Assembly (NCBI GenBank): GCA_009692365.1
Contig: SHZJ01000006.1
Span: 1-64,000, forward strand
Length of the DNA stretch: 64,000 bases
Direction of reading: 5' to 3'
DNA from: Gammaproteobacteria bacterium
Lineage (GTDB): Bacteria > Pseudomonadota > Gammaproteobacteria > Ga0077536
Shown: piece after piece, positions 1 to 48,065 of the stretch
Position numbering within the stretch: the first letter of the stretch is position 1
How the letters are laid out: each line of letters starts with the position of its first letter
Notes under the pieces: model-generated
Told to the model about the DNA's origin: nothing
The model's input: only the letters and a program-made list of their open reading frames with translations
The model's database searches: none
Translations under genes and position numbers: made by a program

Positions 1-1079
1 TCACGGCCACCCTGCCCATAGCAGGCCGGCCCGGGGCTCGCCCCGGCGCTGCGCGGTCCCGCCCGCAGCGAGCCGCCCTCGTCGATCCAGCCCACCGAGC
101 CCCCGCCCGCGCCCACACTGTGGATGTCGAGCATGGGGACGATGCAGGGGATCTCCCACTCGATTTCGTGGTCGCGGGTGATCAGCCCTTTGCCGTTTTC
201 CACGATGGAGACATCGAAGCTCGTGCCGCCCACATCTGTGTGGATGATATTGGGAAAACCGCACAGCCGGCTCAAATAACCGGCATAGGCGACGCCCCCC
301 GCAGGGCCGGACTCAATCAGTTCTTCCGGGTGCTGCTTGGCGTATTCGAGCCCGGTGATCCCGCCGCTGCTTTTGAGAATCAACAGTGAGCCGGTGCAGC
401 CCTCGCTCCGCAAGGCCGCTTCGAGCCGTCGAAAATAGACCTCCATCACCGGGATGGTCGCCGCCCGGATAGCGGTGGTGGTAAACCGGCCGTGTTCACG
501 GAATACGGGCCGGGTCTCGGCAGACAGCACCACATAGGTAGCCGGGTTGAGCTCGCGGATGATGTCGCGCATCTCCCGCTCGTGCTGGTCATTCTTGTAA
601 GAATTGATGAACGCCACCGCCACCGATTGGATCTTGTGAGCGCGAATTTTCTCCGCCACTGCATAGGCTTCAGCGCGCGGGAAAGCGCGCACAACCTGCC
701 CCTGCACATCAATTCTTTCATTCACCGTATAGCGGTAGCGACGCTTGATGATGGGCTTGGGCTTGACCTGATAGGGGTCGTAGAGCTGTTCGCGATGCTG
801 GCGCCCAATTTCGATGGTGTCGCGAAAACCCTCGGTGGTCACCATCGCCGGAGCGGGATAGTCGCGTTCAATGAGCGCGTTGGTCGCGGTGGTCGTGCCG
901 TGCATGACATGCGAGATTTCAGCAAACGGGATCCCCGCTTCGCGAATCGCACTGATGACGCCCACGGCGCGATCGTGGCGGCTGGTCAGCACCTTGGAGG
1001 TGACCTGCGCGCGCGTCTGGTCGTCCCAAGCGAAAAGATCGGTAAAGGTACCGCCAACATCGATTCCAACCCGCCACAT
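1..1079 (-). CDS. Hydantoinase/oxoprolinase family protein, HyuA type (3' end outside window)
   Basis: The first 359 codons of a HyuA-type protein run off the left edge. The ATG at 1079 follows AAGGAG at good spacing. The N-terminus carries the ASKHA-type phosphate-binding motif GIDVGGTFTDLF. Later come HGTTTATNAL, the SGPAGGV stretch, a second nucleotide motif (HTDVGGTSFDVS) and the GAGGGSVGW segment, in the family order. Members hydrolyse cyclic imides or lactams such as N-methylhydantoin or 5-oxoproline with ATP, or carboxylate ketones, usually with a HyuB partner. The partner would lie left of position 1. It starts 45 bp after the sarcosine dehydrogenase-like gene and is probably co-transcribed, which hints at N-methylated nitrogen compounds. 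The substrate cannot be read from sequence. Confidence 0.9.
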   Translation of the reverse strand, partial: MWRVGIDVGGTFTDLFAWDDQTRAQVTSKVLTSRHDRAVGVISAIREAGIPFAEISHVMHGTTTATNALIERDYPAPAMVTTEGFRDTIEIGRQHREQLYDPYQVKPKPIIKRRYRYTVNERIDVQGQVVRAFPRAEAYAVAEKIRAHKIQSVAVAFINSYKNDQHEREMRDIIRELNPATYVVLSAETRPVFREHGRFTTTAIRAATIPVMEVYFRRLEAALRSEGCTGSLLILKSSGGITGLEYAKQHPEELIESGPAGGVAYAGYLSRLCGFPNIIHTDVGGTSFDVSIVENGKGLITRDHEIEWEIPCIVPMLDIHSVGAGGGSVGWIDEGGSLRAGPRSAGASPGPACYGQGGR

Positions 1080-1124: not shown

Positions 1125-3575
1125 TCACCCGCGTAGGCGCTGGAACTCGGGGTCGTAAAGCGGCGCGATCGACATCCGCGCGGGATAGCGCTCGTTGCCT
1201 ACTTCAATTTCATAGCGCCCCGCGTTCAGCCATTCGTCGCTGACGCCCTCGGCGTTGACCACATAGCCCAGCGCAACACAAGCGCCCAGCGTATGGCCAA
1301 ACATGCCCGAAGTCGTGTAGCTATTACGCACGCCGTCGCGGTAAATAGGCTCGTTGTGATACAGCATGGGGGTCGCGTCTGCCAGTAAGAATTGCACCAA
1401 GCGCCGGGTGGGGAGTCCGGCGTCGCGCTGTCGTAGCAACGCCTCGCGGCCCACAAATCCGCCGGGCTTATCCCAGGCGCAAGCAAAGGCCAGCCCCGCT
1501 TCCAAGGGGGTGTCGTGGGAACCAATGTCGTGCGCCCACTCGCGATAGGCTTTCTCGATGCGGAGCGAATTCAGCGTGTGATAGCCGCAGTGGCGCAGAC
1601 CAAAAGCCGCGCCGGCTGCAACCAAAGCCGTATACACCGGCACCGTAAAAGCGGTGGGGATATACAACTCCCAGCCCAGTTCACCGGCGTAGCTCAAACG
1701 CTGGGCGAGCAGGGTCTGGTAGCCCAGTGGGATTTCTTGCGCCGCGCCGTAGGGAAAGCTCTGATTGGAAAAATCGTGCGGCGAGAGCGCTTGCAGCAGG
1801 GCGCGGGAATTAGGCCCTTGCACATTGAGCATCGACCAGCTGCCCGAAACATCGGTGATCACACAGCGCGCATCTTCTGGGATCTGGTTGCGGATCAGCG
1901 CCTCAACGTGGGTGTGGGTAAACGCCGCCGCCACCACGAAATACTGATCCTCCGCCAGCCGCGAGACGGTCAGATCGGCTTCGATGCCGCCGTTGGCATT
2001 CAGGAACTGGGTATAGACCACCCGCCCCGGCGGCACCGACATCGAGGCGGTGGTCATGGCGTTGAGGACGCGCTCTGCGTCGCGCCCCTGCACCAAAAAT
2101 TTCGAGAACGAGCTTTGCTCGAACACGCCCACGGCGGTGCGCACCGCATGGTGCTCCTGCGCGTTGTTGTCGAACCAGTTCTGCCGACCCCAAGCGTATT
2201 CATAGACCGGCGGCTGCCCGGGGCGGGCGTACCAGTTGGGCCGTTCCCAGCCTGCGGATTCGCCAAAACACGCCCCGGCTGCCGCCAAACGGTCGTGGAG
2301 GACACCTTGCTTGACGCCCCGCGCGCTGGTCCACTGCCGATACGGCCAGTGGTCCTGATAGCCAATGCCCAAGGACTCGGTCATGCGGTCGTGGAGGTAG
2401 CGCCGGTTGCTTTGCCAAGGCTGGACGCGGCGGATATCGACCGACCACATGTCCATCGGTGGCCGACCGGTGGTAATCCATTCAGCCATCACCATGCCCA
2501 CCCCACCGCCCGAGAGTATGCCCAGCGAATTCATCCCCGCTGCGACAAAAAAATTGCGCACAGTGGGCGCCGGGCCCATGAGGTAATTGTGGTCGGGGGT
2601 GAAAGATTCTGGCCCGCAGAAAAACAGCTTAATGCCGTGGTCCATTAGCGTGGGAACCCGTAACATCGCTTTCTCGACCACCGGCAGCAGGCGGTCCCAG
2701 TCAGCTTGGATGTCGTTGAAACAGAAATCTTCGGGGATACCGTCCATACCCCACGGTCGCGCCACGGGTTCGAAATAGCCCACCATGATTTTGCCGGCTT
2801 CCTCGCGAATATAGGCACTGTTGCCGGGGTCGCGCAGGATGGGCAGGCGGTTGTGCACGCCCGCCACCGGCTCGGAGACGAGGTAGTAATGCTCGCAGGC
2901 CTGCAGGGGCACGTGCACGCCCGCCAGCTGGCCCACCTCGCGCGCCCACAGGCCGGCGCAATTCACCACAAACTCGGCCCGGATGTCGCCGCGCTCGGTG
3001 CGCACGCCGGTGACCACGCCTTGGTGGCGCTCGATGCCAATCACCTTGGTGTTCTCGATGAGTTGCGCGCCGCCCATGCGTGCGCCCTTCGCCAAGGCTT
3101 GGGTCACATCGGTGGGATTCACGCGGCCGTCTTGCGGAAAATAGAACGCCGCCTGTACGTTAGTGACGTCGGCCAGCGGCCACATATCGCTCACTTCGCG
3201 GGCGGTAATCTCGTGGCTTTCCACGCCAAAGCTGCGCGCCATCGCGCAGCCCCGCCGCATCTCGTGGGCTTTCTCAGGGGTCATCGCTAATTGGATGGAT
3301 CCGCAGTTGATCAAGCCCGTGGCCTGCCCGGTCTCGGCTTCGAGATCACGGTAGAGCGCCTGCGTGTACTTCGCGAGTTGGGTCTGCGCCTCGGTGTCGC
3401 GCAGGGTGGTCAGCAGGCCCGCCGCATGCCACGTCGTGCCGCAGGTGAGCTGTTTACGCTCTAGCAGCACCACATCGTTCCAGCCCAGTTTGGTTAAGTG
3501 ATAGGCAATGGAGCAACCGATGACGCCCCCCCCAATAATGACGACGCGGGCACTGGACGGTAGGGCTTTATTCAT
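1125..3575 (-). CDS. FAD-dependent sarcosine/dimethylglycine dehydrogenase-like oxidoreductase with GcvT domain
   Basis: An 816-residue flavoenzyme of the dimethylglycine/sarcosine dehydrogenase family, close to full family length. A Rossmann FAD motif (VVIIGGGVIGCS) starts near residue 10. TTWHAAGLL near residue 47 contains the histidine that binds FAD covalently in mitochondrial DMGDH. The FAD domain is followed by an FAO_M linker and by GcvT-like folate-binding domains (second half), which accept the methylene group as methylene-THF in characterised members. I chose the ATG at 3575, just before the FAD motif; an upstream ATG at 3632 adds 19 atypical residues. Neither start has a strong ribosome binding site. 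It precedes a hydantoinase A gene by 45 bp. Oxidative N-demethylation of a methylated glycine derivative is likely; the exact substrate is unknown. Confidence 0.9.
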   Translation of the reverse strand: MNKALPSSARVVIIGGGVIGCSIAYHLTKLGWNDVVLLERKQLTCGTTWHAAGLLTTLRDTEAQTQLAKYTQALYRDLEAETGQATGLINCGSIQLAMTPEKAHEMRRGCAMARSFGVESHEITAREVSDMWPLADVTNVQAAFYFPQDGRVNPTDVTQALAKGARMGGAQLIENTKVIGIERHQGVVTGVRTERGDIRAEFVVNCAGLWAREVGQLAGVHVPLQACEHYYLVSEPVAGVHNRLPILRDPGNSAYIREEAGKIMVGYFEPVARPWGMDGIPEDFCFNDIQADWDRLLPVVEKAMLRVPTLMDHGIKLFFCGPESFTPDHNYLMGPAPTVRNFFVAAGMNSLGILSGGGVGMVMAEWITTGRPPMDMWSVDIRRVQPWQSNRRYLHDRMTESLGIGYQDHWPYRQWTSARGVKQGVLHDRLAAAGACFGESAGWERPNWYARPGQPPVYEYAWGRQNWFDNNAQEHHAVRTAVGVFEQSSFSKFLVQGRDAERVLNAMTTASMSVPPGRVVYTQFLNANGGIEADLTVSRLAEDQYFVVAAAFTHTHVEALIRNQIPEDARCVITDVSGSWSMLNVQGPNSRALLQALSPHDFSNQSFPYGAAQEIPLGYQTLLAQRLSYAGELGWELYIPTAFTVPVYTALVAAGAAFGLRHCGYHTLNSLRIEKAYREWAHDIGSHDTPLEAGLAFACAWDKPGGFVGREALLRQRDAGLPTRRLVQFLLADATPMLYHNEPIYRDGVRNSYTTSGMFGHTLGACVALGYVVNAEGVSDEWLNAGRYEIEVGNERYPARMSIAPLYDPEFQRLRG

Positions 3576-45195: not shown

Positions 45196-45438
45196 GCGCC
45201 CGCCTGGCGGCCGTCCGGGTGGCAGCACGCCGCAAGCGTCGGCCCCTAGGCACCTGCGGCGCGTCCCTGCCGCCCCTCGTGCGGCACCCGCCAGCCGCTT
45301 AAGGACACTCACACCGCGCAACTGGCAGGCTGTGCGTGGCGAGCCCCCGCCCCGCGCCGGCGCGCCGGCTCAAGCTTGGCGCTCGGGTGCCGACACGCAC
45401 TGGGCAGGCCCCGGCCCGGGGCCGCTCGGGGAGCCTCA

Positions 45439-46527
45439 ATGGCAGCCATCCACGCGACGACCTTTCCCCATTTCGCGGGCCGAGCGTTCCCCTTCGCTCA
45501 CCTCGGCGACGAACCTATCCGGCGCGGCCCGGAGCCGGGTAACCCCCACGCCGCCGACCACGGCGAACGCGCCGACCCGACACCCGGCGACCAGCGCCCC
45601 GCGCGGCGCGCGACCGCGGGCGTCCCCCCACCACCGACGCGGCCGCCGCAGCCGCCCAACCGGCAGGCCAGCGACTCCAGCCAGACCGCGAGCAGCTTCA
45701 GCTATCAGCGCTCGGCGCGCACCACGCTTGTCCTCACCACCCAGGAAGGCGATACGGTGCAAATCAAACTGCGCGCCCACAGCGGCGCGGAACTCGCCGC
45801 CGCCGAGTTCGCAAGCGGCGATACGTTGTTATCCGCGTTCGACCTCCAGACCCGTAATACCAGCAGAATGTCGCTGCTCGTCAACGGTAATTTGAACGCC
45901 GCGGAGCTGAGCGCCATCCGCAGCGTGGTGGCACAGGTCGGTGCGATCGCGCAAGATTTTTTCGCTGGCGATGTCGCAGCAGCGTTCGCCAGCGCCCAGC
46001 ACTTCGAGATGGATGGCACGCACCTCGCCCGGGTGGGCATCGCGATGCACGCCGAGGAAGCCTGGACTTACTCGGCGCGACAGGCCTCCTCTGGGCTTGC
46101 GCCGCGCGCCGCCCCCCCCCTCGCCGTAGCCGCGCCAGACGCCCCACGCGCGGAGGTTCTGCCGGGCGACCGCGCCACCTCCGTCACGCCGCTCGCCGCG
46201 GCGAGCGGCCGCCGCGAGCCGCTGGGTCGGGGCCAGCCGATAGCCGATGCGCTGGCGCAAATCGACCGTTTCTTGAAGGGCCTGCTGGACCAACTGGCGC
46301 AACCCACGCCCAGCGAAAAAGCGGCCGGCACGCCGACCCTGAACCTCGCGGTCAAAATCAAGCTGCTAGCCTCCATGCTCACCGAGGCGACCACCCCTGC
46401 GACCACCCCTGCGACCACCGACACCGCGCCACCCGACCCCACGGGCACGCCGCTACCCGCGCTCGTCACCCAGACCCTCGAGGCGCTCGCCGCGCAGCAC
46501 CAGCCGCCCCTGCACACCGAGGTCTAG
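45439..46527 (+). CDS. Hypothetical protein with DUF5610-like core
   Basis: A 362-residue soluble-looking protein without a signal peptide. The N-terminal third is Pro/Arg/Thr-rich and low in complexity. The middle (about residues 90-215) has a recognisable pattern: FSYQRSARTTLVLTTQEGDTVQI, LNAAELSAIRSVVAQVGAIAQDFFAGD and AAFASAQHFEMDGTHLARVGI, which I associate with DUF5610 and related Pro/Gly-rich bacterial proteins of unknown function. The C-terminus contains repeated ATTPATTPATT. I chose the ATG at 45439. It ends 190 bp before the minisatellite. Function unknown. Confidence 0.75.
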   Translation: MAAIHATTFPHFAGRAFPFAHLGDEPIRRGPEPGNPHAADHGERADPTPGDQRPARRATAGVPPPPTRPPQPPNRQASDSSQTASSFSYQRSARTTLVLTTQEGDTVQIKLRAHSGAELAAAEFASGDTLLSAFDLQTRNTSRMSLLVNGNLNAAELSAIRSVVAQVGAIAQDFFAGDVAAAFASAQHFEMDGTHLARVGIAMHAEEAWTYSARQASSGLAPRAAPPLAVAAPDAPRAEVLPGDRATSVTPLAAASGRREPLGRGQPIADALAQIDRFLKGLLDQLAQPTPSEKAAGTPTLNLAVKIKLLASMLTEATTPATTPATTDTAPPDPTGTPLPALVTQTLEALAAQHQPPLHTEV

Positions 46528-46670
46528 CCCCCACCAAGGCGCTGCCCGCTGGTTCGCCGTGCACGCGCGGCCGTTGCCGCTGGTCGTGCCACGAGCCCGT
46601 TGGGGTCACGAGGAGAGAACAGGTGCCGTCAACGCCCGACGAGCGGCGCTGTTTTTAGCGCATGCGAATG

Positions 46671-46735
46671 GCCGCAAGCCCGGATCCAATGGGTCGTGGA
46701 CTGTCGCCAATGGAGCGATGGGTGTCCGGGTTTCC
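46671..46735. repeat. 65-bp segment duplicated at 47216-47280, copy 1
   Basis: This segment, containing CGGATCCAATGGGTCG and the first ATGGGTGTCC word, recurs at 47216-47280 inside the minisatellite with one mismatch in 65 bp. Copy 1 forms the left flank of the array, so the internal copy looks like captured flanking DNA. Confidence 0.9.
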
Positions 46736-47599
46736 CCCCACTTCGATGGGTGTCCCGGGTTTCCCCGAATGGATTGATGGGTGTCCCGGATTGCCCCTTC
46801 GATGGGTGTCCCGGGTTTCCCGAATGGATTGATGGGTGTCCCGGATTGCCGGATTGATGGGTGTCCCGGGTTTCCCGAATGGATTGATGGGTGTCCGCCC
46901 CGGTTCGATGGGTGTCCGGGATTGCCGCCGTTCGATGGGTGTCCCGGATTGCCATGGGTGTCCCGGGTTTCCCGAATGGATTGATGGGTGTCCCGGGTTT
47001 CCCGCGCGGGTTTCCCGCGAATGGATTGATGGGTGTCCCGGATTGCCGCCCCGGTTCGATGGGTGTCCGCCCCGGTTCGATGGGTGTCCGGGATTGCCGC
47101 CGTTCGATGGGTGTCCCGGATTGCCCCGCGGATTGCCCCGCGGATTGCCATGGGTGTCCCGGGTTTCCCGAATGGATTGATGGGTGTCCCGGATTGCCCA
47201 TGGGTGTCCGGGATTGCCGCAGGCCCGGATCCAATGGGTCGTGGACTGTCGCCAATGGAGCGATGGGTGTCCGGGTTTCCATGGGTGTCCCGGATTGCCG
47301 CCATGGGTGTCCCGGATTGCCGCCGCGGATTGCCGCCGATGGGTGTCCCGGGTTTCCGGTTTATGGGTGTCCCGGATTGCCGCCATGGGTGTCCCGGATT
47401 GCCGCCGCGGATTGCCGCCGATGGGTGTCCCGGGTTTCCGGTTTCCCCCCGAATGGATTGATGGGTGTCCCGGGTTTCCCCCCGGGTTTCCCCCCGTTCG
47501 ATGGGTGTCCCGGGTTTCCCCCCGCGGGTTTCCCCCCGGGTTTCCCCCCGTTCGATGGGTGTCCCGGGTTTCCCCCGGGTTTCCCCCGGGGTTTCCCCG
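46718..47599. repeat. Mosaic minisatellite of about 880 bp with 28 ATGGGTGTCC words
   Basis: By eye I count 28 copies of ATGGGTGTCC. Each is followed by one of a few modules: CGGGTTTCC, CGGATTGCC, GGGATTGCC or GCCCCGGTTCG, joined by linkers such as GAATGGATTG, GCCGTTCG or direct abutment. Units are about 20-45 bp. Higher-order blocks are duplicated (for example 47281-47363 and 47365-47450). No stop codon occurs within most units, so all six frames stay open for hundreds of bases; I do not regard these as genes. The array lies in the 1169-bp gap between the DUF5610-like gene and the MazG-like gene. GGGTTTCCC and CCCGGG give strong local pairing potential. Confidence 0.95.
47216..47280. repeat. 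65-bp segment duplicated from 46671-46735, copy 2
   Basis: The internal copy of the left-flank segment lies between units 18 and 19 of the array and divides it into two halves with different unit composition. The left half is rich in GAATGGATTG linkers, the right half in GCCGCC and C-tract variants. Confidence 0.9.
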
Positions 47600-47696
47600 C
47601 CCTCCACGGGCGCGGACTGTTGAGCCGAGCATCGCTCCCCGCCGAGCGGCCATCGCCAGACTCTCTCCAATGGCCTACTGAGAACCGGTTTCGGGC

Positions 47697-48065
47697 GTGA
47701 ACGACGTGGCAGTCCCCCCTAGACAACTGCGGCTCGACCTCCGTGAGGCTCTGCGCGATTTCGCCAGCGCGCGCGACTGGGACCCGTTTCATAGGCCCCG
47801 CAACCTCGCCACCGCGTTGTCGGTAGAGGCCCACTCCTTAAAGCATTTTCCGTGGCTACACGATCGAGACGCCGACCACTTTGATGAACTCAAGCGCGCC
47901 CGGGTGGGAGAGGAACTGGCCGACGTGCGGCTTTACTTGATAAGGCTCGCGGACAAACTGGATCTCAACCTAATTGCCGAGGCGCGACGCAAGCTCGAAT
48001 TAAATGCCGCGAAATACCCGATAGAGCTGGCCACGGGCTCCCCCCAAAAATACCCGGATCTCTAG
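47697..48065 (+). CDS. MazG-like nucleotide pyrophosphohydrolase with an altered metal motif
   Basis: A 122-residue all-alpha NTP-PPase. FASARDWDPFHRPRNLATAL, HFPW, EELADVRLYLIRLADKLDLNL and RRKLELNAAKYP match the small dCTP-pyrophosphatase/MazG-like family in order. These hydrolyse non-canonical or excess (d)NTPs to monophosphates with Mg. The metal-binding pattern ExxE...ExxD reads E44-A-H-S47...E73-L-A-D76, so the second Glu is Ser here (codon 47835-47837). Activity may be reduced or altered. It starts with GTG at 47697, about 100 bp right of the minisatellite, and lacks a clear ribosome binding site. Confidence 0.85.
   Translation: MNDVAVPPRQLRLDLREALRDFASARDWDPFHRPRNLATALSVEAHSLKHFPWLHDRDADHFDELKRARVGEELADVRLYLIRLADKLDLNLIAEARRKLELNAAKYPIELATGSPQKYPDL

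Follow-up and report, generated by a model that had tools for sequence, protein, structure and literature searches.

Mosaic minisatellite arrays in Gammaproteobacteria share a short word that is linked to TnpA-Y1 transposases of subclass 2.3

Several systems are described in which a Y1 transposase gene is accompanied by short repeats. In the RAYT/REP systems (REPtrons, BIMEs, REPINs) the gene lies between inverted short repeats, which are also found in intergenic regions elsewhere in the genome, and the type of repeat follows the lineage of the transposase. The TIRYT elements (TIRtrons) carry a RAYT-like gene between terminal inverted repeats with the motif GGGGWSAS (Di Nocera et al., 2013, PMC3733652). 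Of the 26 TIRYT examples 20 belong to subclass 2.1 of the TnpA-Y1 transposases, 6 to subclasses 2.2 or 2.5 and none to subclass 2.3 (PMC6006769). The latter is defined by the HuH motif NHYH, the W motif WE and the Y motif YVDLNP (Quentin et al., 2018, PMC6006769); its proteins have a median length of about 325 aa, core insertions and a two-part C-terminal tail, and the 2018 survey found no REP-like sequences for them by automatic or manual search (PMC6006769). Our analysis assigns to this subclass an outward-facing, non-palindromic word and the arrays built on it. We consider it likely that a subclass 2.3 element has the word as its end or recognition site and that the action of the transposase at the word both seeds and expands the arrays.

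The array under study is intergenic, located between a 383-aa reading frame and a MazG-like gene followed by a GST gene, in a window of 64 kb, which is the whole stretch of DNA that was analysed (Table 1). The word ATGGGTGTCC occurs in the array 28 times, just as the original prediction had counted, always exact and always on the + strand. The rest of the window holds zero copies, and 100 dinucleotide-preserving shuffles gave a mean of 0.12 copies and a maximum of 1. As had been described, the array contains the linkers as well as the modules CGGGTTTCC, CGGATTGCC and GCCCCGGTTCG. Core-to-core spacing ranges from 18 to 63 nt, Tandem Repeats Finder reports overlapping imperfect periods only, and the claim of a variable unit that goes beyond plain slippage of one unit was borne out. 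The copy of the 5' leader in the middle of the array is flanking DNA that was amplified along with the word, and the perfect 82-nt duplication is a sign of recent array growth. Word-free tail copies gave an impression of directional polarity by eye, which we rejected: in other genomes 66 such copies lie upstream and 63 downstream. A separate 12-nt tandem repeat (2.8 copies, 46387-46419) is located within the upstream 383-aa frame.

Table 1. Coordinates of the array, its internal copies and its neighbours in the window, and of the arrays of the second word type on other contigs of the source assembly.
Feature	Position	Strand	Remark
Mosaic array: 28 words ATGGGTGTCC (46718-47564), private tails CGGGTTTCC / CGGATTGCC, linkers	46718-47599	+	
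Word-free tail copies closing the array	47565-47599	+	
5' leader, first word and tail; source-like copy of the internal duplicate	46668-46735	+	68 nt, 97% identity to 47213-47280
Internal duplicate of 5' leader, word and tail	47213-47280	+	97% identity to 46668-46735
82-nt block containing three words, perfectly duplicated in tandem	47281-47444	+	
103-nt block 46851-46953 and its second copy 47023-47125	46851-47125	+	172 nt further, 91% identity
Upstream 383-aa reading frame without Pfam family	45376-46527	+	context; stop 191 nt before array
Downstream MazG-like gene	47697-48065	+	context; start 98 nt past array end
TGCCTGTCC arrays, contig 9 (L295)	2481-2866 and 3035-3241		
TGCCTGTCC array, contig 38 (L010)	1-370		

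Very long open frames run across the array on both strands (46606-47670 and 46655-47653 on the - strand, 46891-47700 on the + strand), which could lead a gene caller to false protein annotations. These frames, which are most likely a by-product of array composition, would fit a coding repeat, and a structured RNA was among the possibilities raised by the original prediction. We hold a coding repeat or structured RNA to be very improbable, since 11 of the 27 spacings are not divisible by three, the tested frames of the array show no Pfam family, no Rfam match was obtained and the array folds as its shuffles do (z of 0.06 for the whole array as DNA, about 0 for tiles folded as RNA). Pairing between adjacent parts of a unit also had to be given up after a swap test, in which native head-tail pairs folded no better than swapped ones overall (lower in 11 of 18 cases in the own genome, 5 of 15 in the same-genus genome G004 and 42 of 91 in the others). 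A CRISPR array was considered and rejected on account of the irregular spacing, the modules recurring within the array and the result of ORF clustering, in which no cas gene recurred beside the arrays.

A triple-core pattern on GGGTGTCC has 84 matches in the source assembly (3.45 Mb in 79 contigs, 93% complete), and its reversed form has 0. When the fetched stretches were scanned for clusters, about 18 arrays with 4 to 28 words each were resolved, three of the 18 being built on a second word type, TGCCTGTCC. The word common to the arrays of this genome is TG(GG/CC)TGTCC. Different arrays agree only at about -2 to +10 relative to the word, with a weak C.GATT additionally conserved between arrays in the source genus, whereas inside a single array identity is mostly 80-97% from -4 to +17. 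Each array thus combines a universal word with a tail of its own, about 8 nt long. The modules, which had been thought of as a shared alphabet, are private to each array and the word alone is common to them. Two of the arrays, on contig 49 (L012) and contig 38 (L010), lie near tRNA-Met and tRNA-Gln genes.

Other genomes of the same genus differ widely in the number of pattern matches (54 in G004, 27 in G006, 5 in G002, 1 in G001 and 0 in four others). In the collection of species genomes at least 115 stretches match the pattern; among the matches listed there Gammaproteobacteria dominate, and Phycisphaerae, Acidobacteria and Myxococcota are represented as well. Some matches in species genomes and viral contigs fit the pattern by chance, being coding repeats or palindromes, and the transposase described below is absent from all 33 of 33 viral-contig matches. 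Since several viral matches are of this kind, the pattern alone is no proof. In the viral contigs L150-L158 and L048, and L165, L168 and L175, the matches are repeats like GGCAATGCGTGGGTGTCC, which look coding, and palindromes GGACATGGGTGTCC; neither kind is related to the transposase. The annotated phage collection yielded no subclass 2.3 protein, and among the papers listed by literature searches for the word none dealt with bacterial repeats.

The original prediction had named arrays at several loci as its support and a unique array, pointing to an assembly artefact, as its refutation. The same word stands at many loci, and words and arrays are also present in records of complete plasmids and of chromosomes in a single contig. 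An artefact might be suspected from the draft state of the genome and from the several arrays at contig ends, but it is hardly credible when many loci and many genomes, complete records included, have differing arrays.

Clustering of all ORFs near the arrays revealed a sole recurrent protein family, found at 17 loci at a distance of 34-266 bp from the nearest word. At these genes the words on the 5' side are almost always opposite to the gene, and those on the 3' side are in line with it. The protein is a Y1/HUH transposase of about 325 aa (309-352 aa in 13 alignment rows) with the motifs NHYH, WE and YVDLNP; the majority residues of the alignment are NHYH, FWEGRF and YVDLNP, and a few rows have NHLH, NHMH, NHFH or NHVH. 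In the predicted structure, helices follow the HUH strand as an insertion, and the tail is helical. A Foldseek search with it returned 4ER8, the RAYT of E. coli, as the best hit (E 1.2e-4), followed by the transposases of ISDra2 and IS608; Pfam and NCBIfam models scored below threshold only. Judged by its motifs and length, the family matches TnpA-Y1 subclass 2.3 in the published table (PMC6006769). The core insertions, the C-terminal tail and the predicted HUH fold agree with this assignment, as do the several copies per genome and the richness in Gammaproteobacteria.

Several controls support the link between the word and the transposase. When k-mers were sought around 110 subclass 2.3 genes without presupposing a word, TGGGTGTC came out as the top 8-mer. 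In a control set of 79 subclass 2.3 genes fetched by protein alone, an outward word was found at 71 genes and an inward word at 16, with 243 outward against 23 inward copies; 68 genes were biased outward and 2 inward (sign test 4e-18, uncorrected for relatedness). Where both flanks were readable (68 genes), outward words stood on both sides at 41 genes and on one side at 21. The first word lies at a median distance of 77 nt upstream of the matched gene start and 200 nt downstream of the stop. Among 369 genomes sampled from the class, triple arrays were present in 14, spread over 14 genera, and all 14 were among the 57 genomes with the transposase (P = 1e-12, phylogeny not corrected for); the other 43 of the 57 had no dense array of this pattern. 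Moreover, the word types GG, CC, GC and GA cluster on the transposase tree, requiring 12 changes versus 20.9 after shuffling, with 0 of 200 shuffles as low. The linkage and this co-variation strongly suggest that the transposase recognizes the word. The repeat-reading protein that had been envisaged for the array is now strongly implicated, on computational grounds, as a Y1/HUH transposase.

One could argue that a host protein involved in regulation or chromosome organisation uses the array as a binding platform and that the link to the transposase is secondary. The exactness of the word in 28 copies and the intergenic location of the arrays, two of them beside tRNA genes, would agree with such a role. 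However, the arrays are wholly absent from close same-genus genomes, no host factor is indicated and their presence tracks the transposase, so that we find this explanation unlikely.

Against the reading of the word as an element end stand the 43 transposase-bearing genomes without a dense array and the window array itself, which has no adjoining transposase gene. The only full-length subclass 2.3 gene of the source assembly is located on contig 38 (115-1101), and its one readable flank carries words TGCC(G/T)GTCC, not TGGGTGTCC. It may be that a GG-type transposase gene is missing from the 93% complete draft or was lost. The word type on the readable flank of the contig-38 gene is the TGCCTGTCC type of the three arrays mentioned above.

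Mobility of the element is illustrated in Pseudoalteromonas shioyasakiensis, in which it is inserted between the isocitrate dehydrogenase and acetolactate synthase genes, just past a terminator-like sequence. The corresponding site of strains CF6-2 and HL-AS2 lacks both transposase and word, i.e. it is empty; the flanks are 80-88% alike, so that the exact junctions are blurred. On its left side the element has 6 words in SDCH90 and 2 in A316. This difference on one side of the same element makes a local instability hotspot plausible, and to that extent the recombination hotspot of the original prediction stands. A three-word array of SDCH90 without transposase is missing in A316 at a 93% identical locus; a neighbouring ORF differs too, and therefore this locus is no clean empty site. 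A further search for an empty site (G378/G171) gave one distant flank only. For the window array an orthologous empty site was sought in same-genus genomes, where the MazG-like genes are only 41-47% similar and their loci contain no other window neighbour among those tested. In several pairs of related elements the homology stops at the word or a few nucleotides past it, as in L091/L184 at TGGGTGTCCCAGAT and L231/L271 at TGGCTGTCCTAAGTTGATT; the bases past the end of homology in L091/L184 are unrelated and themselves repeated. In other related pairs the homology ends away from the word, so ending at the word is a tendency.

These data also bear on the notion that the word is a target rather than an end, the arrays having existed beforehand for another reason and the transposase preferring to insert there. 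Words far from transposase genes, those of the window included, and the choice of sites by short sequences in transposases of this class are in line with it. Nevertheless, it is improbable in view of the word-free empty sites in CF6-2 and HL-AS2, the inverted outward words at a typical distance around the gene and the word type that tracks the transposase lineage.

If the word is indeed an element end, the system probably works as follows. TG(GG/CC/GC/GA)TGTC(C) would be the end or recognition sequence of an IS-like element encoding a TnpA-Y1 subclass 2.3 (RAYT-related) HUH transposase, with an outward-reading word on either side of the gene. The transposase would bind the word in single-stranded DNA, its tyrosine would nick the DNA beside the word, and the nicked end would be copied or rejoined out of register, which would give head-word-tail segments of variable length stacked in tandem. 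In arrays of the window type the same word lies away from the transposase gene, and local amplification of the adjacent DNA would have produced the private tail and the linkers. The TnpAREP proteins cut REP substrates in single-stranded form at the dinucleotides CT or CA (PMC8266576), which makes the nicking step plausible; the hairpin used in that cleavage was seen here neither in the swap test nor in the folding of the whole array. We infer the binding as well as the nick, the strand that it affects and where it falls, and also that growth is driven by nicking and not by ordinary slippage. The repeats are most likely both a substrate and a by-product of the subclass 2.3 transposase.

A serious rival is that the transposase supplies the first word only, as an old solo end or remnant, and that the array then grows by plain replication slippage unrelated to nicking. 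The variable lengths of heads and tails, the perfect recent duplications and the word-free tail copies are all compatible with slippage, as is the single word that many transposase loci hold. Against it, growth was repeatedly centred on the intact word while the neighbouring DNA varies between arrays, and dense arrays occurred only in transposase-bearing genomes among the 369 sampled. We regard slippage as a real possibility, though not a probable one. Possible, though less likely than not, is also the idea that subclass 2.3 transposases are makers of minisatellites that would nick their 9-10 nt word wherever it occurs, even by chance, and so drive local tandem amplification of the word with its neighbouring DNA; a universal word with private modules would then arise without the arrays transposing.

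With element ends acted on by the transposase as the preferred reading, the system works like RAYT/REP or TIRYT/TIR. The gene is flanked by inverted copies of the repeat, as in a REPtron, yet the repeats fail two defining REP features: a palindrome or hairpin was not found, and the GT[AG]G hairpin foot is not constant, GTGG being present in many GG-type words and not in the ATGGG, TGCC and TGGC types. Therefore, these repeats are not canonical REPs, and they form head-to-tail arrays with private tails in contrast to the dispersed pairs of REPs. The TIRYT motif reads STSWCCCC when reverse-complemented, and compared by eye the word followed by CC, as in GTGTCCCC and CTGTCCCC, fits it; T or A follows many words instead. 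This compatibility hints at a possible common descent of the element ends. Dense arrays of words with private tails are, however, not described for TIRtrons (PMC3733652). The likeness to IS200/IS605 consists of the HUH/tyrosine fold, predicted here, and of a gene with its ends inserted into an empty site, while no subterminal hairpin was found in our case, the protein is longer with extra regions and arrays grow at the ends.

Overall, the original interpretation of the array is partly supported. Subclass 2.3 was previously without a DNA partner in the reference Y1 classification; a concrete word of 9-10 nt, whose variants follow the protein lineage, is now assigned to it and makes its activity directly testable in vitro. 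A protein-based explanation is thereby offered for bacterial minisatellites with a common core word and differing modules. Eukaryotic minisatellites also share a short core (the Jeffreys core), and why they do is an old question; the parallel is an analogy only. A divergent subclass 2.3 gene (L203) has AAGCCATGTCTC on both sides, which is possibly a third word type.
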